Shown: in pieces, positions 1-20,969 of the stretch
How the letters are laid out: every line of letters begins with the position of its first letter
Numbering within the stretch: position 1 is the stretch's first letter
IMG/VR virus record: IMGVR_UViG_3300023443_001656
Location: 1-25,060 of that record
Length of the DNA: 25,060 bases
Reading direction: 5' to 3' (one strand)
DNA from: a virus
The notes under the pieces: generated by a model
Databases searched by the model: none
What the model was told of the DNA's origin: nothing
Seen by the model: only the letters and a program-made list of their open reading frames with translations
Made by a program: the position numbers and the translations under genes

Positions 1-3000
1 CTATGTGTTAATAGCATCAAAAACATATGCCACAGTTCCCCAATTACCATTATCTTGTTTAACAAACTTTGTAAGTGTACTGGCAATTTCAATAAATCCT
101 TCTGCTCCTTTATGATCTCCAAATGCAGCATCTAATGCAGCAATAGTAGTAGATACTCCCGATATAACTAATGGAGAGGCAATCATTCCTTGAGATCCAG
201 TATTAAAACTGGCATTATCTTGTACTGCAATTTGTAATGTAGTAGCTGCACTGAGAGGCGAAATTTTGTGTGCGGCACTTCCTGTTTCATCTATTAAACC
301 AAATGCTAAATCAGATGTGATTCTAGCTGGGATAGAAAGATATGACCTAAGATTATTGTTACCTCCATTTATAACAAGTGCATCAGTAAGTGAATTGTTA
401 TTATCTGCTCTAACTTTAATTGATAATCTTCCTGAATCTGTACTCTCTTTTACTTGGGGTACGATTCCAGCATAAGATAATGGTGTGGCACCTCCACTTT
501 GAAATATGATGGGAGTAAAGTCTGCATCTACAGTATTACTTGATAGTTTTTGTAAAAATAATCCAGTTGTATCAAATAAATAAGAAAAGCTGGAGGTGGG
601 ACTAAATTTTATCTCATTTATCAAAGAGTCTGCAACAATCATTCTTTCAGTTAGAGCTCCGTTAATCAGATCAACTGCAAATCTTCCGTTTTCAGATGTA
701 TCAGATACATCAGCTGCCTCTATACTGACTGAACCATACTGAGTATCATTTCCTGCACTGTCCTCACCTCTAAACTGAATAACCCCAATAGTGACATCAT
801 CGATAGTCATGCTAGTGTCGTTTCTTCTTAATCTTAGAATAGCATCATCCCCATCTTGATCTGATTCTAACATCATGGAGCCACGAAAAGAGTGGAAAGT
901 GTTTGTATTGATTAGACCAGCTCCACCCGTAATGGAATAGCTGTTATCAGTACCCACAAAATTAGAAGTACCTTTACTTGTAACATCAAAAATTATTTTT
1001 CCATTCTCTAAAGTATTTGCAAATTCTGCAGTTAGAAATCCATATTGAGCATACTGAGTTCCTGAAACACCAGCATCGTTTCCGCTGAAAAATCTTTCAA
1101 ATTGAATTATTTTATTTGCAGATATTGTGACTTGACTGTCATCCCAAAACACATTCCATTGATCTAATGGGGTAGCAGTAAATCCTCTATAATCTATAAA
1201 ACCATTATTACTTGAATTTACTTCTAATGTGTATTGTAAATTTGCACCATTTGAAAGGAATAATTTAGGTTGAGATGTGGTTACTTGTTCTACTGATAAT
1301 ACTACATTACCATCTTCAATAGAACTTTGAGGACCAATATTACTTAGATTTCTAACTGCATCACCTGAGAATACTTTGACATCTATACCGTTCAATCTAA
1401 ACTCACCAGCAAGTCCAGGGTCAACACCAGAAGACGGTGCAATTAGAAATTGTGATGCAACAGTTAAAACGTCAGTATCAATGGTATTAATGACAAATTT
1501 ACCCGTATCTGTTCCAGTTCTTACAAGACTTGCTAATCTATCAGTGTCTGCATACCAAGCGTGTTCATCAGTAGTTAATGCTACTGAATATCTTAGCTCC
1601 TTATCTGTAAAGTCAAACCCAATTGAATTTTCATTTGATGGTGTATTGACATTTGAATTATCAAAATTTGCTTTCTTGATTAAGTTAATGTCATTTTGTG
1701 ACATGTTAATCACATGAGATCCAAGTATTGTTAATCCAGTTGTGTCATCAATTTCAAGAATGTCAGTAATATTTGATGTAAAAATTGCCTTATCACCAGC
1801 AAGAATAGAAAACCTCGCACCGACTCCTAATGGTCCACTTATGTTTAGTTTTGTAGCTCCTGCAGAATCCTCTACATCCAAAGATAGTAAATTATTAAGA
1901 GAAAATCCTACTGCATCAATATTTGATAACCAAGGTGTTTGATTTTGACCCCCCCCAGAGCTTGATCCTACTGATGTAGCGTGGGTAACTACTATCCCCC
2001 CATCTATTGTGTATAGCATCACAGATGTTCGGGTACCAGCTACTGTAGATACAACTGGAGGATTATTCACACTTTCAGGCCAGAGAGGAGTAGCAAAACC
2101 GCCAATCTCATCAATGTCAATTATTACTAGCACCCCTTCATATTTTCCTGATGGTGGCAAATTAGAGAAATCAAAAACTGTGTCAGCAGTCATTGTTAGT
2201 ATGTTGGGATTTTTACTCCAGTCAATAATTGATACTGTCGGAGCTGTTTGTTGAGTTACAATATTAGGTGTTAAAATAATAGGTTCAGTTAATCCACCAC
2301 CACCATTTGTTCCACCACCAAGAGAAAATATCTGACCCCACGTCCCCAAAGTTTGGAGGGTGCCAGCTCCTAGAACGTCAGTGGATGACAACCTCACATA
2401 GACATCTGCAGCAGTTGCATCAACAAATGCACTAGATACGGGAGCCTCTGATGTACTGGTAAGGGCTGTATCAAAAGTGATAGAAAGTGAAGCACTTCCT
2501 ATGTTTACTGGTGTGGTAAACGCCAAATCAGATGATGACTGCCATTGAGCTCGTAGGGAATCATTAGTACCTACAATTAACACAGATGAATTCAACTGAA
2601 AAATTCCCCCCGATAATTTGAATATGCCATCACCCTCCTCTGTAATTCCTGTACCTACTGGAGATTCTGAAGTAAATTCAAAATCAACTACCCCAGCTAA
2701 CTGGGATGATGGTAACAAAAGAGTTGCAACTGATACATCTCCTGTAACACCACCTGTTCCACCACTACTAATCCATACAACAACCCAAGCACTCAATAAC
2801 TGTGAATAATATAATTTTACAATCTCGCCAAATGATAGAATCAAATCATTACCATCAGGTGTAATAATATTACCACCGATACCTTCTAGATTTTTTAGTG
2901 TAATATTTACAAGATCATTTGGATTTTGTAGGTATAATTCTTGATTAAGGAATACCCTCTCTCCAGGTATGATTAATGATAAATCATCAGCAGCCCCACC

Positions 3001-3306
3001 CTCAGGATTTAAAATTAAAAAGGGAACAAAGTTTGATGTTGTAACTGATACGTTTATCGTATTATCAATTATTTCTAAAATTGTAAACTCGTTACCCATT
3101 GGTCCTAATCGTACATCCCCTGACTTTGAAAGATAGTTACCTGATGCACTTCCTTCTGCACTACTTTGCTCGCCAGATAATCCAAATACGGGAGATGTGG
3201 AATTGTACACTTTGGTATCATCAATGATTTGTTTTGTAATGTCTATTGTATTATCATTAATTCTTTGAGATGTGTTTCGTGGTTTGTCTACTCCTGTACT
3301 ACCCAT
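1..3306 (-). CDS. Large tail fibre / receptor-binding-type structural protein (1101 aa)
   Basis: Probable virion appendage protein that contacts the host surface. It is rich in Ser, Thr, Asn, Gly and beta-branched residues with few cysteines, as in beta-structured phage fibres. Two glycine-rich hinges are visible, near residues 327-340 and 446-455. The C-terminal ~70 residues contain an 'AALDAAFG' stretch and a 'DNGNWGTV' ending resembling terminal repeats of phage fibre and collar proteins. It starts with ATG at 3306, 13 bp after the hub gene's stop codon, and ends with TAG at positions 1-3, so it is complete. It is the last gene of the tail cluster in this window. The second hinge is encoded by a run of eight G. 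No enzymatic domain was recognised. The fibre role is inferred from composition and position; the exact target is unknown. Confidence 0.6.
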   Translation of the reverse strand: MGSTGVDKPRNTSQRINDNTIDITKQIIDDTKVYNSTSPVFGLSGEQSSAEGSASGNYLSKSGDVRLGPMGNEFTILEIIDNTINVSVTTSNFVPFLILNPEGGAADDLSLIIPGERVFLNQELYLQNPNDLVNITLKNLEGIGGNIITPDGNDLILSFGEIVKLYYSQLLSAWVVVWISSGGTGGVTGDVSVATLLLPSSQLAGVVDFEFTSESPVGTGITEEGDGIFKLSGGIFQLNSSVLIVGTNDSLRAQWQSSSDLAFTTPVNIGSASLSITFDTALTSTSEAPVSSAFVDATAADVYVRLSSTDVLGAGTLQTLGTWGQIFSLGGGTNGGGGLTEPIILTPNIVTQQTAPTVSIIDWSKNPNILTMTADTVFDFSNLPPSGKYEGVLVIIDIDEIGGFATPLWPESVNNPPVVSTVAGTRTSVMLYTIDGGIVVTHATSVGSSSGGGQNQTPWLSNIDAVGFSLNNLLSLDVEDSAGATKLNISGPLGVGARFSILAGDKAIFTSNITDILEIDDTTGLTILGSHVINMSQNDINLIKKANFDNSNVNTPSNENSIGFDFTDKELRYSVALTTDEHAWYADTDRLASLVRTGTDTGKFVINTIDTDVLTVASQFLIAPSSGVDPGLAGEFRLNGIDVKVFSGDAVRNLSNIGPQSSIEDGNVVLSVEQVTTSQPKLFLSNGANLQYTLEVNSSNNGFIDYRGFTATPLDQWNVFWDDSQVTISANKIIQFERFFSGNDAGVSGTQYAQYGFLTAEFANTLENGKIIFDVTSKGTSNFVGTDNSYSITGGAGLINTNTFHSFRGSMMLESDQDGDDAILRLRRNDTSMTIDDVTIGVIQFRGEDSAGNDTQYGSVSIEAADVSDTSENGRFAVDLINGALTERMIVADSLINEIKFSPTSSFSYLFDTTGLFLQKLSSNTVDADFTPIIFQSGGATPLSYAGIVPQVKESTDSGRLSIKVRADNNNSLTDALVINGGNNNLRSYLSIPARITSDLAFGLIDETGSAAHKISPLSAATTLQIAVQDNASFNTGSQGMIASPLVISGVSTTIAALDAAFGDHKGAEGFIEIASTLTKFVKQDNGNWGTVAYVFDAINT
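1949..1956 (-). repeat. G8 homopolymer inside the fibre gene
   Basis: Eight C on the plus strand encode part of a Ser-Gly-Gly-Gly hinge near residue 450 of the 1101-aa fibre. Other runs of six occur (for example in the same gene), but this is the longest G/C run noticed. Confidence 0.6.
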
Positions 3307-3319
3307 TATTCATCATCAC

Positions 3320-6232
3320 CTATGTTTCAGGCCATACCCTTGTTGCAATATGGAACTTGTTGCGAAATCCTGCCTCGCCTTCAGGAGTTTTGTTTAGTGT
3401 AATTACATTTTTCAATACAACCATCTTTAGTGTATTATCTAAAGAGTCTGTAGTATCATCTACTTGTTCTGTATCTGTGTAATATACAGGATCTCCATGC
3501 TTAATGTCACACCTCCCACTGACAGTTATTTTAAATTCCTGTCTCTGAAAATTTTCATATTTTTCTAACCCCAATACCAAATCTTTGGCTTGTGCATAAT
3601 TAATAATCTCCTTGAATCTTTTTAGACCTCCTTCTACATTTCTTGCAGGTTTATTGTTTGGCTCATCTACATTTGTGACAAATAACGGTTTTATTGCTCT
3701 AAATGCATCTATTCCCATTTCTAATAATTCAGCATCAAAGAATCTGTTTCTCAGTCCAGGATCTAATGCAAATGCACTTGCAGCTTTGTACCTACCCTGT
3801 TTATCAAATGCGTCTTTTGGGTATATTGCCATTTTAATTACTTCAAGTGGATTAAATGCATTGGAAGGATCAGGTTCCGTAGATTTAAAAAAGAATGCAT
3901 CTCCTGTAACTCCTTTGTATGATTTTCCAGGGAGATTAAATGATACAGGTACAATGTCCCCGTCTTTTGTTTGTGTAATGTCAATTAACATGGTTTGGTC
4001 ATTTCTATCGACCATTCTAAAAGTAATGGTATAATCTCCTTCTTGATTATTTTGAACTACATTAACATCCTCAAAAAAGTAAAATATCATTGCCCATGCA
4101 TTTAACGCCAGATAGTCTTCTGATGCTGGACCAAACCATTCTACATCTCCTTTTGTAGTCTTGTACATATTATTGAGATCAAGTGTGCCATTTGCCAAAA
4201 ATTCACCTGTACTAACTGATGTAAAGGGAATATTATTAGAGGATGCTGGTTGCAATACCCAATTATTAAATCCAACATACAAAGGATTTACAGGTGCTGG
4301 TGCTTGTTGTTCTGTAGGGTCTGAAGTTATGACAATTCCTGAATCCTCATTAGTATCAATGTCTGTAAGTTTTCTATGAAATATATCAATATGTCCCAAT
4401 GTATCATTCCACCTTACAGAATGAACACATGAAAATTGTTTGTCTTGTGAAAAACTTCCAACAGATCCAACTCCAGGTATTTCAAAGAGCCCATAATTTC
4501 CAGTAATAAATCCAGCATCTCTTGAACCAATAGTACATACTCCACTTTGGTCTACAAAAGATAACAACCCAGTACATGGATTTTTAATCCAAGATAATCC
4601 TTCATCGTAATCATAAATTTCCTGGTCTTGTGGCATATCCTTTCTATTTAGTACGATAAATCTTCCTACAATAGGATTGGTAGGATCAGCCCTGAATTCT
4701 GCAACATTTCCTGCAAATGGAATACCATTAATGTCATTTCCTCCAAATACTGATCCAAATGATTCAATTACTGCAGTACCCCCTGTTGCAGTATATGTTG
4801 GGGTTGCCACCAATACTCTAAACCCATCAGGTATTACTCCTCCTTGAAAGTAAATGGATGGAATGTCATCAAAACTGCTTCCGACAAATCTTACATAAGT
4901 TCTTGGATGAAGGGAATCAAAGATAATCTCATTTGGATCAATCATTGCAGTTCTATTATTGTGAGTAGCTGCATGTTTTGCTCCACCTAATCCATTTACC
5001 CAATTTTGTAATCCTTTATCGCCTTGCGTTAATGAAGAATATTCTGAACCAGGAAGGAAGTTAAGTCTAGTCCAAAGATCTGGATCTAGTCCTGGCTCAT
5101 TCCCACTATTTCCATTAAGCAGACTTTTGTATACAATATTGTTGTTAGTTACAGTTGCATTGATTAGATAGTTTGTAACATTGTTCCATTGTGGTGGAAT
5201 TTCAAAGGGTCTAACTATCCAAAATGATTCACTTGGTGGTTGTTGATTTGTGTTATCTGCAATGCATTCATACACCAGATTATCTATCTGTACTCTATCC
5301 CCAAAGATATAGTCTGCATCTGCATTCCAAAATTGCGTATTATCAAATACAAATTTAGCACTAACAAATTTGGCATAATTAGTTGGATATGTACCTGCAT
5401 TGTTATTACAAACTATTTTGATATTTGTTGATAGTTCGGGGGTTTCATTTGATGTGTTTACAAGAGTGTTTGTGGTGGTATCTGTTTGAACTCCGTGTTT
5501 TAGAGTAACGTTTGGTATGTTTGTAAATTGCCCTCCGTTATCATTGAATCCTTGTGCGTATGCCTGTAACACCACCTCATCAAGAAAGTCTCCACTAGAA
5601 TGATCATACTTTGAGGTAAATCGTATTGTTGGCGGCTGTTCAGCTCCACCTCCACTTACAGGTAAGGCCTCAATTCTTCCAATCTCTCTAAATATACTTT
5701 CAGGTTTTTCCACCTCAAACTTGTAGAAATTTGTGGTGTTTTTACTCAGATTATTTCCAGTCTTTGTTGTAATGTCAAATGTTGAAGGGGAAAAAACTGT
5801 TGGATCATTATTCCCAATATTTTCAGGAAGATTTAGTTGTCTAATCACTTCATCAAGTGCTTGTGATCCAGAAATACCATTTAATGTAAAAGATATGGTT
5901 CTCTTCCACAAGTTGGAGGATTGATGAGGACAGATTAATCTTAATTGTTGACCTTTAAGTGGTTGTCGTAGTCTTTCTATTTCTTTAACATGAAACACTT
6001 CTTTTAGTACATTGTCATTTTTATCAGTAATTTCCAAATAAATCCTGTCATATTTTTGAATTAAAGGAGCAGTTGTAAGAAATTTCCCCAGTTTTGCATT
6101 AAGAGTTAATATCATTGAGGGCTGAATGGTATCATCAAATTCAATTTCTACCCAAAAATCTTCTAAATCAACATCTGCACCATGATCCTTTAGAATTAAA
6201 AGTACATTGGTTAGTCCTTCTAAAAGTCCCAT
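3320..6232 (-). CDS. Tail hub / tail-tip protein with two carbohydrate-binding-like modules (970 aa)
   Basis: Likely the hub at the tail tip. The N-terminal ~130 residues resemble hub proteins in pattern: a beta-rich segment, then 'DRIYLEITD', 'VFHVKEIERL' and 'GQQLRLICPH'. The last ~110 residues ('RQEFKITVSGRCDIKHGD' onward) again look like the beta-barrel end of hub proteins. Between them, residues about 298-345 and 346-392 form two tandem modules with the pattern W-x4-Y-x2-G-x-V-x4-Y-x-(~12)-P-x-W. This resembles chitin/cellulose-binding modules of the CBM5/12 type found in tail proteins. The start ATG overlaps the previous stop as TAATG, suggesting translational coupling. The hub role is inferred from position and length; the binding modules rest on motif reading only. 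Confidence 0.6.
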   Translation of the reverse strand: MGLLEGLTNVLLILKDHGADVDLEDFWVEIEFDDTIQPSMILTLNAKLGKFLTTAPLIQKYDRIYLEITDKNDNVLKEVFHVKEIERLRQPLKGQQLRLICPHQSSNLWKRTISFTLNGISGSQALDEVIRQLNLPENIGNNDPTVFSPSTFDITTKTGNNLSKNTTNFYKFEVEKPESIFREIGRIEALPVSGGGAEQPPTIRFTSKYDHSSGDFLDEVVLQAYAQGFNDNGGQFTNIPNVTLKHGVQTDTTTNTLVNTSNETPELSTNIKIVCNNNAGTYPTNYAKFVSAKFVFDNTQFWNADADYIFGDRVQIDNLVYECIADNTNQQPPSESFWIVRPFEIPPQWNNVTNYLINATVTNNNIVYKSLLNGNSGNEPGLDPDLWTRLNFLPGSEYSSLTQGDKGLQNWVNGLGGAKHAATHNNRTAMIDPNEIIFDSLHPRTYVRFVGSSFDDIPSIYFQGGVIPDGFRVLVATPTYTATGGTAVIESFGSVFGGNDINGIPFAGNVAEFRADPTNPIVGRFIVLNRKDMPQDQEIYDYDEGLSWIKNPCTGLLSFVDQSGVCTIGSRDAGFITGNYGLFEIPGVGSVGSFSQDKQFSCVHSVRWNDTLGHIDIFHRKLTDIDTNEDSGIVITSDPTEQQAPAPVNPLYVGFNNWVLQPASSNNIPFTSVSTGEFLANGTLDLNNMYKTTKGDVEWFGPASEDYLALNAWAMIFYFFEDVNVVQNNQEGDYTITFRMVDRNDQTMLIDITQTKDGDIVPVSFNLPGKSYKGVTGDAFFFKSTEPDPSNAFNPLEVIKMAIYPKDAFDKQGRYKAASAFALDPGLRNRFFDAELLEMGIDAFRAIKPLFVTNVDEPNNKPARNVEGGLKRFKEIINYAQAKDLVLGLEKYENFQRQEFKITVSGRCDIKHGDPVYYTDTEQVDDTTDSLDNTLKMVVLKNVITLNKTPEGEAGFRNKFHIATRVWPET

Positions 6233-13689: not shown

Positions 13690-14283
13690 TTAAAATTGCC
13701 CAAGGTTCTCACCTGTCACTCCATCCAGATAAAAACATCTACAGTTAGGATGCGTCTGGCTGGGAATCCTTACTCTTTTTACATCATCTATTGGATACAC
13801 TGTTCCCTCTAAGGGAAGACAGATAATATCATCTACCTTGTTGTCTCTCTGTGTCATGAATATTACAGGGCGTTTCTTTTGGGAAACCAAACTCACTATT
13901 TGCTCATCATCATTTAGTGCATTTGTAAGTATAGTAGCAAATGATACAGCTAGTCCCCCAGAGATTAAAGCGTTGGTAAAGGCAGAATTTGTTATATTTT
14001 TTACTTTGGGAATATTTGGCGGATTCTTTAACTCTACAAGCTGAACTGAATTAGTTACATCGACAGATAATTTCTTTGAGAGTCCTGCATCAGTTAGTGC
14101 TTTTGTGAATATGCTTGACTGTCTATCTGATAGTGTAAAGTTGGTACCAGATCCTATAATTCTAATTAGTGCCTGATTGCCTGATAAATTATTTAACACA
14201 AGTGATGCAGTACCAACAGCAAAACCTGATGATAACAGTGATTTTATGAAACGCTCATTTTCAGTTTGAACTTTGGCTGACAT
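13690..14283 (-). CDS. MuF / SPP1 gp7-type minor head protein (197 aa)
   Basis: Minor capsid protein next to the portal, thought to act inside the head near the portal. The C-terminal part carries the MuF signature: residues 144-160 'TQRDNKVDDIICLPLEG' and 178-183 HPNCRC, matching the family's D...C..L.G ... P.HP.CRC pattern. The N-terminal 120 residues hold three similar helical repeats, F12-N31, F59-N78 and F102-N121, each with F-x3-L-x3-G and an Asn 19 residues after the Phe. The protein is shorter than many MuF proteins and has no fused toxin domain. ATG at 14283 lies 7 bp after the portal stop, consistent with co-expression. Confidence 0.75.
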   Translation of the reverse strand: MSAKVQTENERFIKSLLSSGFAVGTASLVLNNLSGNQALIRIIGSGTNFTLSDRQSSIFTKALTDAGLSKKLSVDVTNSVQLVELKNPPNIPKVKNITNSAFTNALISGGLAVSFATILTNALNDDEQIVSLVSQKKRPVIFMTQRDNKVDDIICLPLEGTVYPIDDVKRVRIPSQTHPNCRCFYLDGVTGENLGQF

Positions 14284-14290
14284 TTAATTA

Positions 14291-15997
14291 TTATTGTCGA
14301 GATAATTTCTTTTTAGAAATTTTGTTTTGAATTTCAAGATGCTCCTTTGCCACCTTTAGCACATCTATCTTACTTTTTTGAATCTCATTCCATTGGTTTC
14401 CATGTGTGTGCCAGTTTTTAGCTAGTTCTGGTCTGCCATTTCCCCATACAGATGGAGTATGCCAACTATTCCCTCTATTCCCCCAGGTGGAGTGATTCTG
14501 TTTCTCCCATGTCTTTCTTGTTGGGGAGGTATCCGTCCCTTGAGTTGGGGAATCCTTCATCATGTCACGTAATCCATATCGCTCCATTACCAGCTCCATT
14601 GTGGTAAATCCGTTATCGACTAGCTGCATCATAATGTTCCATTCCTCTGGAGGAATCTCTGTAGCAAAGACTGGCTTTTCATAGTTGTGTGTGATTTTTA
14701 GTGGAACTTGATCTATATCTTCAGGCTCTACCATGAATAGGATAGCTAATACCCTGTCATAGAACTGGTTCTCTAGTGTCTTTTCATATCTTTCCTGAGC
14801 TGGTTTAATCTCATCATTAAGTAGTGAATCATTTTCCTCCCTGTTTGCATTTCCTCCCATATTTCCAGTAACCCCCTTTGATAGTTGAAATAATGGAACG
14901 TGGTTATATCCTGCAATTCCCTCAATACATGTTCGCTCAATTTCTAGTAAAGCTGAGATATTACCAGAGTTAGTGGCACCATTAACTACACTTACACTAT
15001 GCGGTACTGATACGTCAGCATTTCCAACATTGGCAATATCTGCATTAAAATCCTCAAGGATTGCTTTGGCCTCTGAATACTTTGAGGTTGGGAGATCATG
15101 CTGGTAAATGTTTGGTGTCCTCCATGTACGGTTTGCAGCATTTATCAGGTCTCTTGCATATATGATTAATAATACCTGCCCCAAGTCATCGATTGCTTGT
15201 ACTGCTGAGACTCCATAAAAGTCGCCAAACAATTCTAAATTTTTTGAATTATTAAAATAGATACATCTGTTAGCATCTAATAATGAACCATTTGATGATA
15301 ACCCTGTTACTTCTACTCCTACAAGTTCTCCATTATCAAAATTTACTATTGGTCTTCTCAACAAGTCTGGCCTGATTAATCGTAACGCTACAGGTAAAAC
15401 GTACTGTCCATTTTTATTTCTAGTTTCAGGAAACATTCCAATTGCTGTTCTTCCCTGTTCCCGCTCAAAGAGAAACGCATCATACACCAGACTATCCAAA
15501 TCTAATGTGGTGGCGTACTCATCCATCCATATTTTAATCTCGTCTGGTGACATTTTCTCACCTAGCAAAGGAACATCAATCTTTTCAGTTCTCCAGGTCT
15601 CAAGATCTTCTTCTCGTATCTCCTGGTTTAATCTGGGGAGAACTGACCTAGTTGATTTTTGTATGGTTAGCTGTTGTAAAATTTGATTAGCCTTGAGGAC
15701 TGCCCAATTATTTCTCATTAGTACCCTCCACAATGCCCGTTCTTCTGGGAGGGATGGATCAACTGATGGATATATTGTAAGATTTTTGAATGGTGCAATT
15801 TTCTTTAATGCTTTTGAATCTTTACTTGTCTCAAGGCCTCGTCTTGTGGTGGGTTTACGCATTCCAGTAGCTGCCCATGAAGGAATTTGTGCAAATCTTT
15901 GTGGACCTGCAGTAAATGCCTTTACATCAAGGTCTAATTCTAATGCTGGGACTGATGTAGCAAAGGGCTTTACTTGTTTTTTGTTTTTGCCCATCAT
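14291..15997 (-). CDS. Portal protein (568 aa)
   Basis: Forms the dodecameric DNA gate at one capsid vertex. Length and features fit the portal family: a helical stem/wing region with 'YDAFLFEREQGRTAIGMFP' (~residues 190-210), the 'RLIRPDLLRRP' segment, and a conserved-looking loop region around 'VNGATNSGNISALLEIERT' and 'LFQLSKGVTGNMGGNA' before the crown helices. Residues ~495-535 form an unusual tail rich in Trp, His, Gly and Asn (WGN and WHT motifs), followed by a basic coiled C-terminus. The gene follows the nuclease paralogue and has its own CTTAATAAGA element. ATG at 15997 or the next codon at 15994 can be the start; no Shine-Dalgarno is evident, suggesting a short-leader transcript. 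Confidence 0.8.
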   Translation of the reverse strand: MMGKNKKQVKPFATSVPALELDLDVKAFTAGPQRFAQIPSWAATGMRKPTTRRGLETSKDSKALKKIAPFKNLTIYPSVDPSLPEERALWRVLMRNNWAVLKANQILQQLTIQKSTRSVLPRLNQEIREEDLETWRTEKIDVPLLGEKMSPDEIKIWMDEYATTLDLDSLVYDAFLFEREQGRTAIGMFPETRNKNGQYVLPVALRLIRPDLLRRPIVNFDNGELVGVEVTGLSSNGSLLDANRCIYFNNSKNLELFGDFYGVSAVQAIDDLGQVLLIIYARDLINAANRTWRTPNIYQHDLPTSKYSEAKAILEDFNADIANVGNADVSVPHSVSVVNGATNSGNISALLEIERTCIEGIAGYNHVPLFQLSKGVTGNMGGNANREENDSLLNDEIKPAQERYEKTLENQFYDRVLAILFMVEPEDIDQVPLKITHNYEKPVFATEIPPEEWNIMMQLVDNGFTTMELVMERYGLRDMMKDSPTQGTDTSPTRKTWEKQNHSTWGNRGNSWHTPSVWGNGRPELAKNWHTHGNQWNEIQKSKIDVLKVAKEHLEIQNKISKKKLSRQ

Positions 15998-16085: not shown

Positions 16086-16805
16086 TTAGAAGTATCTCTT
16101 GCTTTTAAAAATATTGTATGTATCCATATTTTTTTTAATTTTTGAGCCAGTCTTATTATCTACAAACAATTCCCCTAGCAGTTCCTCCTCGTATGATGGA
16201 TGCTTTGGCGGATCAGGTGTTACGCCTTTTTGAATTATAAATGGCATCACTCCATGCTGTAGGTGGTGTCTGCCTGCAAAACAGCATATCATTAATGCTC
16301 TGGTTAAATTATCCCACTCATCTCCTGGTGCATAATATGAGATGGTACCGGATTCTGTAGTGTACTCTGTAAACATTTCCACCTGAGACATTAATTTTTT
16401 CATGGTATCAGTGGGGTTTGGGGGGAACTGTATTTTATGATCCTGCTTTAGGGATAAAAATAACTGAGTCATTTCTGTCTGGTCCATTACTTTGATTTTT
16501 TCAATATCCTCAGGGTCTTTCAGGTTTTTCTGGGTGGTAATGGTATGCATTACAAAGCCTACCTTATGCTCAATGTTTCTGATTAGTGATTGGCCTATTA
16601 GCTGGTCAGCAAAGGTGTCAGTCCATTTTATTTTAGAATAAACATTTTTGACATCTGTAGGAATTTTGTTTAGATTATCCCTACTCCATTGTTTTGCCAG
16701 TCTTACATATGCTGTTTTTTTCTTTTCATCTAATTCTATCCCGACCATTCCAAATTGATTTCTATGTTTAGAGTGGGAGAATGCTACGATCGTATCATTA
16801 TTCAT
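16086..16805 (-). CDS. Degenerate paralogue of the terminase nuclease (239 aa)
   Basis: This protein aligns by eye with the adjacent 193-aa terminase nuclease. 'FGMVGIE' and 'RLAKQW' match 'FGAVGLQ' and 'RHAKQF'. Near the C-terminus 'SGTISY...WDNL' matches 'SGHVSY...HDDL'. The catalytic acids are changed: the first Asp (D20 of the nuclease) corresponds to S10, the Glu (E77) to Q72, and the last Asp pair to D165/N166. It therefore looks like an RNase H-fold domain that no longer cuts DNA. It could be a structural subunit of the packaging motor, a regulator of the active nuclease, or a DNA-binding protein. ATG at 16805 overlaps the nuclease stop as ATGA, so the two are made together. The C-terminal ~60 residues have no counterpart in the nuclease. 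Confidence 0.6.
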   Translation of the reverse strand: MNNDTIVAFSHSKHRNQFGMVGIELDEKKKTAYVRLAKQWSRDNLNKIPTDVKNVYSKIKWTDTFADQLIGQSLIRNIEHKVGFVMHTITTQKNLKDPEDIEKIKVMDQTEMTQLFLSLKQDHKIQFPPNPTDTMKKLMSQVEMFTEYTTESGTISYYAPGDEWDNLTRALMICCFAGRHHLQHGVMPFIIQKGVTPDPPKHPSYEEELLGELFVDNKTGSKIKKNMDTYNIFKSKRYF

Positions 16806-17383
16806 AATTGATTATCCCACCATATCCTAATCGCATTACATCCAATTAATTTACATAAAAATAAATCATCATGTCGTCCTCTTTGTCTCTTGTATGATAC
16901 ATGACCTGATGGGGTGGTAATTCCTACCATTTCATTTTGTTGGTTTATCAATTCTGCCATGTCTGCAGATATGTTTGTGGGGTATTGGATGGTATGTATT
17001 TTGTATTCTTTTTTTAGCCAGCCTATCATGTATGGTTTGTCTACTGCCCATCCTTTGGAACGATTCTTTTCTGTGAGATTCCCAGTAGTTGATACATAGA
17101 TGATTGGTAAATGTGCAAATGCCTTTGATATATTATCATAGTCAAAGTTCTTTTCCAGTATCATCATGTCAGGTTTTACTTTATGTTGTAGTGTGGTAAA
17201 GTGATTTGCAACTATTCCATATGGTTCATTCCAGAACTGCTTTGCGTGTCTGATGTATATTTTTCTTTCAGGCCATGTTCCCTGTAATCCTACTGCACCA
17301 AACGCATCGCCACTTTTTGCAGGATCACCTACTAAAATTTTCAAACTAGTTTCCAAGCTTGACTCCTTGATTTCTCGCTCCAC
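16802..17383 (-). CDS. Terminase large-subunit nuclease domain as a separate protein (193 aa)
   Basis: Likely the DNA-cutting half of the large terminase. It has the RNase H-fold layout: strand with D20 in 'ILVGDPAKSGD', glycine-rich 'FGAVGLQ', second strand 'KIYIRHAKQF', E77 in 'MMILEKNFDYD', and D172/D173 in 'RGRHDDLF'. These are the three acidic positions expected of terminase nucleases that cut concatemers during packaging. No ATPase motifs are present; the ATPase lies about 0.8 kb upstream (18204-19280), with four small genes between. The longest frame starts at GTG 17383, overlapping the 53-aa gene by 38 bp. No later Met precedes D20, so the exact start is uncertain. Confidence 0.65.
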   Translation of the reverse strand: MEREIKESSLETSLKILVGDPAKSGDAFGAVGLQGTWPERKIYIRHAKQFWNEPYGIVANHFTTLQHKVKPDMMILEKNFDYDNISKAFAHLPIIYVSTTGNLTEKNRSKGWAVDKPYMIGWLKKEYKIHTIQYPTNISADMAELINQQNEMVGITTPSGHVSYKRQRGRHDDLFLCKLIGCNAIRIWWDNQL

Positions 17384-17515: not shown

Positions 17516-17620
17516 TCAGCCCCAATTCTTCCCAAATTCAGAACACCAGGCACAATACCCATTTTTTCCAGATTTACCAATTTCAACTTGTTTACATTCT
17601 TTACAATATTGGTTTGTCAT
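17516..17620 (-). CDS. Zinc-knuckle microprotein (34 aa)
   Basis: A 34-residue frame starting with ATG at 17620, which overlaps the stop of the 71-aa gene as ATGA, and ending with TGA at 17516. It has two CxxC knuckles, Cys6/Cys9 and Cys23/Cys26, spaced by 13 residues. This is a complete four-cysteine zinc-ribbon-like pattern in a minimal protein. The overlap and the regular cysteine spacing argue for a real gene despite its size. Similar miniature zinc ribbons occur in virus and archaeal genomes as adaptors or transcription-related factors, but a role here is not shown. Confidence 0.6.
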   Translation of the reverse strand: MTNQYCKECKQVEIGKSGKNGYCAWCSEFGKNWG

Positions 17621-17832
17621 TGGTTCTCCACCACTTTCTCATATTTTTGCTCAGCCCATTTTATTTGTTGTATTCTGGAATGCAATTTTGAATACTCTTT
17701 TTTGGCTAGGAATAACTGAATCTCCAATTCCTTTGTTTTTGGCAATAAAATTTTCAACTCATCATATAGGATGTCTTTCTCTTTGGCTAATTCTGTTTGT
17801 AGTGTAGATAAGCCTTTGTAGATGATAGCCAT
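17617..17832 (-). CDS. Small coiled-coil protein (71 aa, unknown)
   Basis: Predicted almost wholly helical and highly charged, with heptad-like Leu/Ile spacing from about residue 8 to 65 ('LQTELAKEKDILYDELKI', 'KKEYSKLHSRIQQIKW'). It is probably a dimeric coiled coil. ATG at 17832 overlaps the preceding stop as TGATG, and its own TGA overlaps the next ATG, so it is one link in a chain of four micro-genes between the terminase ATPase and nuclease. No family recognised. Confidence 0.65.
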   Translation of the reverse strand: MAIIYKGLSTLQTELAKEKDILYDELKILLPKTKELEIQLFLAKKEYSKLHSRIQQIKWAEQKYEKVVENQ

Positions 17833-18026
17833 CAGTACTCAGCCTCATAATCTTCTATCATGGTTTTGATATTTTTACAAATATCTCTATATTTTGCATT
17901 GTTTGTAATGTCATTATATGCCATCACTTTTTTTGCTGTGGCAATAAAATTCTCACAGACTTTGTCGGTTTTGTGTATTTCTTTTACTATTTGACTATTA
18001 GTCATTTCTTGTATTGTTATATTCAT
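17832..18026 (-). CDS. Small helical protein (64 aa, unknown)
   Basis: First gene of the micro-gene chain. The protein is predicted helical, mixed charge, with Cys24 and Cys50 too far apart for a simple zinc knuckle. ATG at 18026 lies directly against one GTTATATTATAAC repeat (18027-18039), with a second copy 35-47 bp upstream, so the gene starts inside what looks like its control region. The stop overlaps the next start as TGATG. No family recognised. Confidence 0.6.
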   Translation of the reverse strand: MNITIQEMTNSQIVKEIHKTDKVCENFIATAKKVMAYNDITNNAKYRDICKNIKTMIEDYEAEY

Positions 18027-18203: not shown

Positions 18204-19280
18204 TCATTTATTCCGGTCTAGTGTATCCCAATTTATATCTGGAGAAACCTCTTCGTCTGGTTCATCATTATCATCTAACCATTCGCTTTTACCTTGTTGA
18301 TCATCTTTTGTAACTGTTCCAAAAATAGAGTCTCGTCCACTCGTAGGAATGCACATGTATTCTTGTTGTGGGTCTTCAGTACTTGCATTCATCATGTTAT
18401 GTACCTGCTCTTTTGTGTAAAGATTACCCACTGCTCGCTCTATGGTGTATTCTAAAAATGTATAATCAGGATCCTTATCTCGCCATATTTTATAAAATGT
18501 TTTAATTGGACCTTTGAATGTTGATACCAGATACAAGTCAGCACCATTGGAACGTATAATGGGCAATACTGAATTAAACACAGGTGAGTCATCTACTAGT
18601 TTCCATTTCGCTGATTCGTCTTTGAATACTGCTGCAAATTTTGTCAATCCAGTTATTGCTTCTTCAGATGCCGGGAATGCCTCTACCTGAATGCCATTAG
18701 CTATTTCCACAATATTTGATTTGATTCCATTAGGTATTACATTACGAATATGTGTAAATAATCTCATGAATCGCTTTAGGTTCTTTCTAGCTAGATTTCC
18801 ATTCACTGCTGCAATTATTGCGATATTAGAATCCGGTGCATACCGAGTAAAGCAGAAATGAAATATTAATCTCAATACAAATTCTGTAAATCCCATCTGC
18901 CTCCCCTTTAGTATATGAAACATGTGTGCTAGTCTGTCCCATTCTGTTTGATCCATACCCTCAGGTTTTGTGACTGCCTTGATTATCTCATCTATAAATT
19001 CCAGTTGGAATGGTGTGGGGGGCATCTCTATATTTAATGCCGGATGGACGGGTAACCCTGCCACATGTTGTGTGCAGCAAAAATCATTATAATATTGGGG
19101 GTTCTCCTTGTGCTTTGTATTATTACCGCACCAAAAGGGGAGATTCTTCATTTTTGTAAGAATTTCTTTGGGGGTTAACAGAGAGTTTAATTCAATGTTA
19201 CCATTACCATCTTGCTGTTCTTCTTCTTCTTGTTGCTTTTGTAATGTTTGTAAAAGTTTACGTGGTAATTTTACGCTCAT
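18204..19280 (-). CDS. Terminase large-subunit ATPase (358 aa, no nuclease domain)
   Basis: Motor ATPase that drives DNA into the capsid. Residues 125-132 KGRQMGFT form the deviant Walker A of terminases. Residues 215-222 FAAVFKDE are Walker B with catalytic Glu222. 'LYLVSTFKGP' (~residues 250-260) fits motif III, and 'QQEYMC' near residue 315 fits the segment that normally leads into the nuclease domain. The protein then ends with an acidic ~45-residue tail instead of a nuclease. An N-terminal Cys/His cluster (C51, H57, C68, C69, H72) is unusual. It starts with ATG at 19280, overlapping the small terminase by 23 bp. The missing nuclease is encoded separately at 16802-17383. Confidence 0.75.
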   Translation of the reverse strand: MSVKLPRKLLQTLQKQQEEEEQQDGNGNIELNSLLTPKEILTKMKNLPFWCGNNTKHKENPQYYNDFCCTQHVAGLPVHPALNIEMPPTPFQLEFIDEIIKAVTKPEGMDQTEWDRLAHMFHILKGRQMGFTEFVLRLIFHFCFTRYAPDSNIAIIAAVNGNLARKNLKRFMRLFTHIRNVIPNGIKSNIVEIANGIQVEAFPASEEAITGLTKFAAVFKDESAKWKLVDDSPVFNSVLPIIRSNGADLYLVSTFKGPIKTFYKIWRDKDPDYTFLEYTIERAVGNLYTKEQVHNMMNASTEDPQQEYMCIPTSGRDSIFGTVTKDDQQGKSEWLDDNDEPDEEVSPDINWDTLDRNK

Positions 19281-19644
19281 TATTTTTCTTTAGTGCCATT
19301 AATGTTGGTCCCTCCCCCTGCATTACCCATCTTGTATTGATTGTTTCACGTAGTTCTCTTATAACTTTGAGTTTATCATCTTGTGTTATGGCTTTTTGTC
19401 TTAGTTGCTGCAACTCTAACTCAATATCGTATAGAGAGTCTATTGTCTGTCTTGTTACAAAAACATAGCCCTCATTTGCATATCCGTATAACCACTTTTT
19501 AGAGTTATTTTTAAAATATTTAAAATCCTCATAAACTGTTTTTACATTTATCTTTAAATGTTTAGCAATATCCTCAGGCCTTACAACAGACTTTGCCATG
19601 AGACGAGATATGTCATTTCTACGCTGCATTACTTGTTGTTTCAT
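19258..19644 (-). CDS. Small terminase subunit (128 aa)
   Basis: Probable DNA-recognition subunit of the packaging terminase. Residues ~20-43 ('RPEDIAKHLKINVKTVYEDF') form a helix-turn-helix. The middle and C-terminus form helices ('IELELQQLRQKAI', 'LKVIRELRETINTRW') suited to the ring-forming oligomerisation domain. Length and position directly before the terminase ATPase, with a 23-bp overlap, fit the role. The ATG at 19644 is preceded by ATTCTTAATAACA, a stretch shared with the 192-aa gene's leader, and by AT-rich sequence without a clear copy of the main promoter core. Confidence 0.65.
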   Translation of the reverse strand: MKQQVMQRRNDISRLMAKSVVRPEDIAKHLKINVKTVYEDFKYFKNNSKKWLYGYANEGYVFVTRQTIDSLYDIELELQQLRQKAITQDDKLKVIRELRETINTRWVMQGEGPTLMALKKNNERKITT

Positions 19645-19766: not shown

Positions 19767-20969
19767 GTGGTATTGAGTGAGATAAAGATACCAACCCCCG
19801 TATTATTAAAAATTGGGGAATTAGTAAAGCATGAATTAAACGTAAAGGAGCACCCAGAAGAACAGATTAATAATTTAATGAAACTAATCCAACTGGTAGG
19901 ATTCAAAGACCCAATAGTGATAGATAAGGATAATACTATTTGGGCAGGCCATGGGAGATTGGAGGCTGCATATAGATTGGACATGGATCTTGTCCCATGT
20001 ATTTACCTGGAGGATCTCTCAGAGTCACAAAAGAAATTATTCATGTACATGGATAATCAGATTAATGAATCGCCTTGGGTAATGGAGAACGTAAAGATTC
20101 TGTTAGGCGAAATACCGCAAATAGAGTTAGAAGAGTTTCAAGTTGACTTTAATGATATTTTAGGTATTGACATTACAGCCGAAGAAGAACCAATACCCGA
20201 GGTTCCTGCAGAGCCTAAATCTAAACGAGGTCAAATATATCAATTGGGTAATCATAGAATAATGTGTGGAGATACAAATACAGATTACAAAAAACTATTG
20301 GGAGATAAAAAAGCAGATCTCCTACTTACAGATCCTCCTTATAATCTTGCTAAATATATGGACCCCCACTTTTACGAAACGACTACTGCAAAATCTCTTC
20401 AGAAATTATCTAATACGGGGTGGGATAAAGACTTTGAACCATTATTTGCAGAAAAATTTAATGATTATATGAATCAAGACTCTTCAGTTTACATATTTAC
20501 TTCACATATTTTATTTGGAAAATTAGTAGAACTGGTGAAAAAATGGGCAAAGTTTGATTATTTTTGTGTGTGGTGCAAACCAAATCCAATGCCATCTTTT
20601 ATGATGAGGTATTGGACACATTCAACAGAACTAATTGTTTTTGGAACTCATGGGAAACACACTTTTAATTTTAACAAAGGAGAACATAATTTCAACTATT
20701 TATTAGTCAATAAAAAAAAGGATACTTCACACATTACAGAAAAACCAACAGAATTACTCAAGGAAATAATTACCCATTCAAGTAACAAAAACCATCTAGT
20801 ATTGGATCTGTTTCTAGGTTCAGGTAGTACACTTATCGCATGTGAGCAAACAAACAGAATATGTTATGGCATGGAGATAGATCCTGGATACATAGATGTT
20901 ATTATTCAAAGATGGGAAAACTTTACAGGTAAAAAGGCTGAATTAATAAAATTAACCAAACATGTTTAA
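19767..20969 (+). CDS. ParB-like domain fused to a beta-class DNA methyltransferase (400 aa)
   Basis: Virus-encoded DNA base methyltransferase acting on adenine N6 or cytosine N4. Residues ~1-130 form a ParB/sulfiredoxin-like domain with 'WAGHGRLEAAYRL' at 59-71. Residues ~150-400 are the methyltransferase: DPPY at 189-192 (motif IV) comes before DLFLGSGS at 347-354 (motif I, S-adenosylmethionine binding), which is the beta-class order. Such fusions are common beside terminase genes in tailed viruses. Methylation may protect the virus from host nucleases or mark DNA for packaging. The longest frame starts at GTG 19767; TTG at 19773 is an alternative. It is transcribed opposite to its neighbours, and its 3' end overlaps the 120-aa gene by 18 bp. 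No cognate endonuclease is visible nearby. Confidence 0.85.
   Translation: MVLSEIKIPTPVLLKIGELVKHELNVKEHPEEQINNLMKLIQLVGFKDPIVIDKDNTIWAGHGRLEAAYRLDMDLVPCIYLEDLSESQKKLFMYMDNQINESPWVMENVKILLGEIPQIELEEFQVDFNDILGIDITAEEEPIPEVPAEPKSKRGQIYQLGNHRIMCGDTNTDYKKLLGDKKADLLLTDPPYNLAKYMDPHFYETTTAKSLQKLSNTGWDKDFEPLFAEKFNDYMNQDSSVYIFTSHILFGKLVELVKKWAKFDYFCVWCKPNPMPSFMMRYWTHSTELIVFGTHGKHTFNFNKGEHNFNYLLVNKKKDTSHITEKPTELLKEIITHSSNKNHLVLDLFLGSGSTLIACEQTNRICYGMEIDPGYIDVIIQRWENFTGKKAELIKLTKHV

Follow-up and report, generated by a model that had tools for sequence, protein, structure and literature searches.

Two overlapping genes of a virus record encode proteins of 193 and 239 aa (p193 and p239) that are homologous beyond doubt. 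Judged from its sequence, p193 is a predicted active nuclease domain of the large terminase (TerL) with an intact active site and a gene of its own, and p239 is very probably a catalytically dead paralogue of this domain. Our preferred reading, to which we give a probability of around 0.5, is that they would belong to a three-protein TerL with a division of labour, in which we infer p239 to be a non-cutting structural or docking subunit.

The packaging module and its two nuclease-like genes

The window, which is the whole stretch of DNA analysed, is an IMG/VR virus record of 25,060 bases and holds a tailed-virus packaging and head module on the minus strand. Its features are the following:

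19258..19644, minus strand: probable small terminase, 128 aa, HTH, overlapping the start of the ATPase gene (from its position and weak HTH and Terminase_5 matches)
18204..19280, minus strand: TerL ATPase as a gene of its own, 358 aa, without nuclease domain (Pfam Terminase_6N, E 9e-7; PHROG terminase large subunit, E 2.7e-17)
17832..18026, minus strand: 64-aa ORF between the ATPase and nuclease genes (ORF list)
17617..17832, minus strand: 71-aa ORF between the ATPase and nuclease genes (ORF list)
16802..17383, minus strand: p193, 193 aa, predicted TerL nuclease domain as a separate gene, with D20, D26, E77 and H171-D172-D173 (Foldseek, homologue alignment)
16802..16805, minus strand: overlap of the p193 stop and the p239 start, 4 nt, ATGA (sequence)
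16086..16805, minus strand: p239, 239 aa, predicted catalytically dead paralogue of p193 (S10, N16, W164, N166; D67 and D165 kept), with a C-terminal tail of about 55 residues (Foldseek, homologue residue counts, dN/dS)
14291..15997, minus strand: probable portal protein, 568 aa, directly after p239 (location between terminase and MuF genes, same place in relatives)
13690..14283, minus strand: MuF-like minor head protein (weak Pfam Phage_Mu_F and PHROG minor head matches)

The ATPase polypeptide stops shortly past its ATPase domain, therefore the nuclease domain, which normally comes next in the same polypeptide, is encoded elsewhere. Instead of the single ATPase-nuclease fusion there are three genes, both in the window and in its relatives. 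The two nuclease-like reading frames lie in tandem on the minus strand, at 17383-16802 (p193) and 16805-16086 (p239), as the initial annotation had placed them, and thus occupy the same genomic place as in phage TerL, between ATPase and portal, although they are encoded apart from the ATPase.

Regarding the other genes of the module, the Walker A region of the ATPase (KGRQMGFTE) is missing the usual lysine before T/S and has an earlier one, and the ATPase N-terminus carries a Cys/His-rich stretch (WC...CCxxH..GLPxH) that is missing from the L030 homologue. In the relative L013 the ATPase homologue (L013:2295-3333) is divided into two ORFs (2295-2825 and 2917-3333) by a frameshift, an insertion or an assembly error. 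The probable portal protein matched no Pfam or PHROG family. The MuF-like protein of L001 (L001:10103-11515) has an insertion matching Pfam Intein_splicing (E 6e-11), which the window copy does not have. On the strand opposite to the packaging module (19767-20969, plus), a ParB-like domain is fused to an N6/N4 DNA methyltransferase. No RNA was found by an Rfam scan of the window and no tRNA by ARAGORN.

p193 and p239 share the patterns FGxVG, RxAKQ[FW], SGx[IV]SY and [HW]D[DN]L in the same order, which had already been noticed. Blastp aligned them with E=5e-9, their Smith-Waterman score was 97 (1000 shuffles gave 32.5 +/- 5.5, with 0 as high), and the profile-profile comparison reached a probability of 99.4% (E=2e-21, 182 columns). 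Neither could be assigned to a credible Pfam or PHROG family, with matches at chance level only, and both are too far diverged for the Pfam and PHROG models of phage large terminase nuclease domains. A sequence search of the PDB with p193 gave chance matches only, and tblastn of both proteins against 50,697 phage records found no credible relative.

The AlphaFold2 models of p239 and p193 were built from alignments of 33 and 31 rows respectively. The p193 model had a mean pLDDT of 88.8 and the p239 model one of 74.6, the latter being around 90 across most of residues 1-180 but lower near 90-110 and 140-160, and below 50 in the tail (residues 185-239), which is predicted to be disordered. In Foldseek searches the best PDB match of both models was the G20c TerL nuclease 5m1f (E 2.8e-7 for p239 and 1.6e-6 for p193), and the best matches of the p239 model were all TerL nuclease domains. 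Both models best matched those of G20c, P74-26, SPP1, Sf6, P22 and T4 (gp17). The structural similarity expected by the initial annotation is therefore borne out by the models, in which both proteins have the RNase H/RuvC-like fold of the phage large terminase nuclease domain (Pfam Terminase_6C).

Catalytic residues in the two copies

We took the active site of TerL as the reference. The G20c enzyme coordinates metal A through D294 and D429 and uses D347 for metal B, and D428 steadies metal A via a water; furthermore, activity was lowest in the mutants D294N, D347N and D429N (PMC5389553). In the P74-26 TerL sequence, D294, D300, D347, H427, D428 and D429 occupy the positions reported for the G20c enzyme. 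The six residues of p193 listed above are in register with these six of P74-26 and are invariant in 16/16 homologues, with E where TerL has D347. Accordingly, the acids equivalent to D294, D347 and D429 are D20, E77 and D173, in the same columns in all 16. The column assignment to P74-26 was based on the joint alignment, the identical motif spacing and the fold; with the 15-sequence profiles, hhalign gave no significant match to P74-26 alone, and only the nuclease profile with outgroups reached 80% (E 1.3e-5).

The codons of p239 that matter for the comparison are three:

16776..16778, minus strand: S10, in place of the first catalytic Asp (D294 of P74-26 TerL); Ser in 10, Ala in 4, Thr in 2 and Asn in 1 of 17 homologues
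16605..16607, minus strand: D67, the kept motif II acid (equivalent to E77 and D347); Asp in 16 and Glu in 1 of 17 homologues, paired by profile-profile alignment
16308..16313, minus strand: D165-N166, the D428 equivalent kept and the D429 equivalent lost; position 165 is Asp in 17/17, and position 166 is Asn in 9, Cys in 3, His in 3, Gly in 1 and Ser in 1

The initial annotation had proposed that p239 lost two catalytic acids, D20 to S10 and E77 to Q72. The number was right and so was the first replacement: the S10 position is never acidic in the 17 homologues of p239, whereas the same column is Asp in all 16 nucleases, in the 8 single homologues and in the 3 fused ones. However, the second replacement was misidentified, since the acids lost are D20 and D173, and E77 is kept as D67. 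The pairing of E77 with Q72 was ruled out by several lines of evidence. Between motifs I and II the profile-profile alignment contains no gap and, shifted by ten residues, sets E77 opposite D67. The same pairing came out of an L-INS-i alignment that included 11 outgroup nucleases, of which eight were single-gene and three were fused TerL. P74-26 and the predicted strands lead to the same pairing, E77 being the end of strand 73-77 in the p193 model and D67 the end of strand 63-67 in the p239 model. The motif II column, which holds D67, is E or D in every other sequence of the joint alignment, and the Q72 position holds E three times and N once among the 17 homologues.

The loss of the third catalytic acid had gone unnoticed: D173 of p193, equivalent to D429 of P74-26 and G20c TerL, is N166 in p239 and is never acidic in the 17 homologues. 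An alternative alignment of p239 thus recovers D67 but does not restore three acids, because the equivalents of D294 and D429 are non-acidic in 17/17 and only that of D347 is kept. In addition, the D300 position is mostly N or T among these homologues, and the H427 position is never H. Since both metal A ligands are missing in all of them, p239 should not cut DNA, an expectation drawn from mutants of a distant homologue.

It could be argued that p239 still cleaves DNA or binds metal through a rearranged set of acids, namely D67, D108, E163 and D165, all of which are invariant or nearly so among its homologues. We consider this highly improbable, given that single substitutions of the missing ligands were enough to give the lowest nuclease activity in G20c TerL, and that D108 and D165 have equivalents in p193 as well, so they may be structural. 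Nevertheless, the near-invariance of the four acids is not obviously required by a purely structural role either, and this counts against our preferred reading.

Distribution, origin and selection of the pair

We searched viral contigs with single sequences and then with alignments, which gave relatives whose identity ranged from 95% to about 38%. The nuclease followed by the dead copy, in the same order, was present in 16 contigs, 15 of them viral and one belonging to a Nitrosopumilus sp. MAG (the window, L001, L005, L006, L007, L011, L012, L013, L014, L020, L021, L023, L025, L027, L028 and, from the MAG, L039). The survey of related viruses suggested initially therefore shows the pair occurring together, with the substitution at the D20 position (S/A/T/N) fixed in the 17 homologues. 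The pair follows a separate ATPase gene, so that the conserved order is ATPase, nuclease and dead paralogue. An overlap of 4-19 nt joins the two genes in 8 of these contigs, and 109-619 nt separate them in the other 8.

A search of five whole virus records and one MAG gave no further copies. The records of L028, L025, L011 and L012 (G431-G434) had two matches each, the record of L030 (G430) had one, and the G150 genome (MAG) had one.

The hosts are apparently ammonia-oxidising archaea, although single contigs may be binning errors. A first genome scan, with a narrow ATPase alignment, had no matches. Of 250 genomes in the family of the Nitrosopumilus MAG, three had matches. In one of them (G122) a p239 homologue and a nuclease fragment are on different contigs, and the contig of the p239 homologue also carries apparent housekeeping genes of these archaea, identified by eye (HesB-like, DnaG-like, acyl-CoA synthetase and crotonase). 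Another (G042, locus L070) has two ATPase copies 6.8 kb apart (G042:C1:94567-95568 and 101403-102404) with one in-frame TGA each and nuclease fragments downstream; this region is a decayed, repeated provirus. The Nitrosopumilus contig itself includes the first part of a protein (L039:14949-20665) that is at least 1905 aa long, begins with a signal-like N-terminus and has weak, unrelated Pfam matches only. We take it to be similar to a thaumarchaeal S-layer protein, and its gene is either virus-borne or a host gene next to a provirus.

Regarding the origin of the pair, the outgroups L030, a viral contig, and L047 have one intact nuclease gene each, and no second nuclease gene was found in their whole records. 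Like L030, several Nitrososphaeria elements encode a single nuclease whose active site is intact, in a gene distinct from that of the ATPase, and in other Nitrososphaeria elements the nuclease is beside or near a separate ATPase. L055, L060, L062 and L030 match Pfam Terminase_6C above its cut-off. The single-gene nucleases of the Nitrososphaeria elements (L047, L052, L055, L060 and L062) resemble p193 in having a gene of their own, adjoined by the separate ATPase in several cases (L055 and L060). Unlike the window, these elements have one intact gene with a tail and no dead copy. In the maximum-likelihood tree one clade unites the nucleases (98/98) and a second one the dead copies (100/99), all the single-copy homologues fall outside both, and the loss of motif I is confined to the p239 clade. 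Given the single intact gene of the outgroup virus and of the archaeal elements, the likely origin of the pair is a duplication after which one copy lost catalysis. The tree neither rejected nor supported a single clade of nucleases and dead copies (p-AU 0.44), so the duplication may or may not have taken place within this lineage.

In five close pairs the dN/dS of p239 was 0.043-0.069 and that of p193 was 0.10-0.20. The low value for p239, tighter than that of p193, means that p239 is functional. The lost catalytic residues might otherwise suggest a decaying pseudogene left by a recent duplication. We rejected this explanation and give it practically no credit, considering that p239 is constrained to a dN/dS of 0.04-0.07, that the gene is open in all 17 copies, and that its clade is old, predating the split of viruses whose p239 proteins are about 40% identical. 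Thus, the dedicated inactive partner proposed by the initial annotation stands in the sense that a dead paralogue under strong purifying selection always adjoins the active copy in the 16 contigs.

Possible roles of the inactive copy

p239 probably acts in packaging. The two roles proposed by the initial annotation, a regulator of cutting or the structural half of a heteromeric machine, are hypotheses. According to our preferred reading, a tailed ancestral nuclease would have been duplicated and its functions divided between the copies. The residues after the D428 equivalent number 20-30 in the nucleases, 43-77 in the dead copies and 46-77 in the single-copy nucleases, so that p193 appears to have kept catalysis without the tail and p239 the tail without catalysis. 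p239 would stand in for the TerL C-terminal domain as a structural part of the translocating motor, its tail would dock the ATPase ring to the portal without the risk of cutting, and p193 would be recruited only for the initiating and headful cuts. The kept tail favours such a structural or docking role, as the C-terminal arm of D6E TerL has been implicated in portal docking (PMC5727402). Nevertheless, the tails of the p239 homologues are poorly conserved and predicted to be disordered, so a common docking motif would be conjectural.

The nearest precedent is the C-terminal domain of phi29 gp16, a vestigial TerL nuclease in which the motif I Asp at strand 1 is replaced by Tyr and which contacts DNA in the motor (PMC7672431). 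A motor can therefore make use of a nuclease domain that is dead. p239 likewise combines a TerL-type fold, as predicted, with lost catalytic residues, so in this respect an inactive terminase nuclease is not as unusual as the initial annotation had it. There are, however, several differences. phi29 has one ATPase-CTD fusion, no active nuclease and unit-length protein-capped genomes, whereas p239 is a separate protein, apart from the ATPase at 18204-19280, that stands beside an active twin and would keep the full RNase H core. Furthermore, the phi29 domain contacts DNA, whereas the pI of the p239 core, mostly around 6-7 (p193 around 9.4), does not suggest DNA binding. As the core is not basic, this argues against p239 gripping DNA like the phi29 domain, and hence against that version of a motor role.

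The main rival explanation, which we consider possible but unlikely, is that p239 chiefly regulates p193. Paralogous pairs with one dead subunit are known among active/inactive nuclease heterodimers such as XPF-ERCC1. Their fold and process differ from those of p193 and p239, for which a dimer is hypothetical. The dead subunit would place p193 on DNA or hold it off until the head is full, and cutting would need a change of partner. Several observations are in line with this: the genes are translationally coupled or adjacent in a fixed order, the pair is always together, the dead copy is more constrained than the live one in close pairs, and p193 has lost its own tail. But no TerL nuclease domain is known to depend on a dimer partner, and the loss of the tail in p193 only is better explained by a division of labour.

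We regard it as very unlikely that p239 has left packaging to become either a DNA-processing factor or a decoy for host defence proteins that recognise terminases. Avs3 recognises a TerL, and PDB 8dgc was among the structural matches. Even so, p239 is encoded after the nuclease, within the packaging module, in every contig, and its constraint, tighter than that of the nuclease, is unlike a typical defence decoy.

Returning to the division of labour, we tentatively suggest, at somewhat less than even odds, that a lineage of archaeal head-tailed viruses split the TerL C-terminal domain into a tailless, cutting-only nuclease and a tailed, dead, portal-facing motor domain. A dead TerL nuclease domain was already known from phi29, but a separate dead paralogue beside a separately encoded active nuclease was not found in the open-access literature searched, nor was a split TerL or a paralogous inactive TerL of this arrangement, so its novelty is unproven.

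Because both activities reside in one polypeptide, it is an open question how a terminase avoids cutting while it pumps and then switches to cutting once the head has filled. Here the cutting domain and its dead equivalent are separate proteins, and their roles could be assayed apart. It could be asked separately which of them is part of the motor, what brings in the nuclease at headful, and whether the domain is needed for translocation at all. The pair is conserved, well defined and testable, its functional role being the part that we infer. If this reading is true, the cutting and translocation states would be physically separated in these viruses, whereas the known terminases switch both within a single protein.
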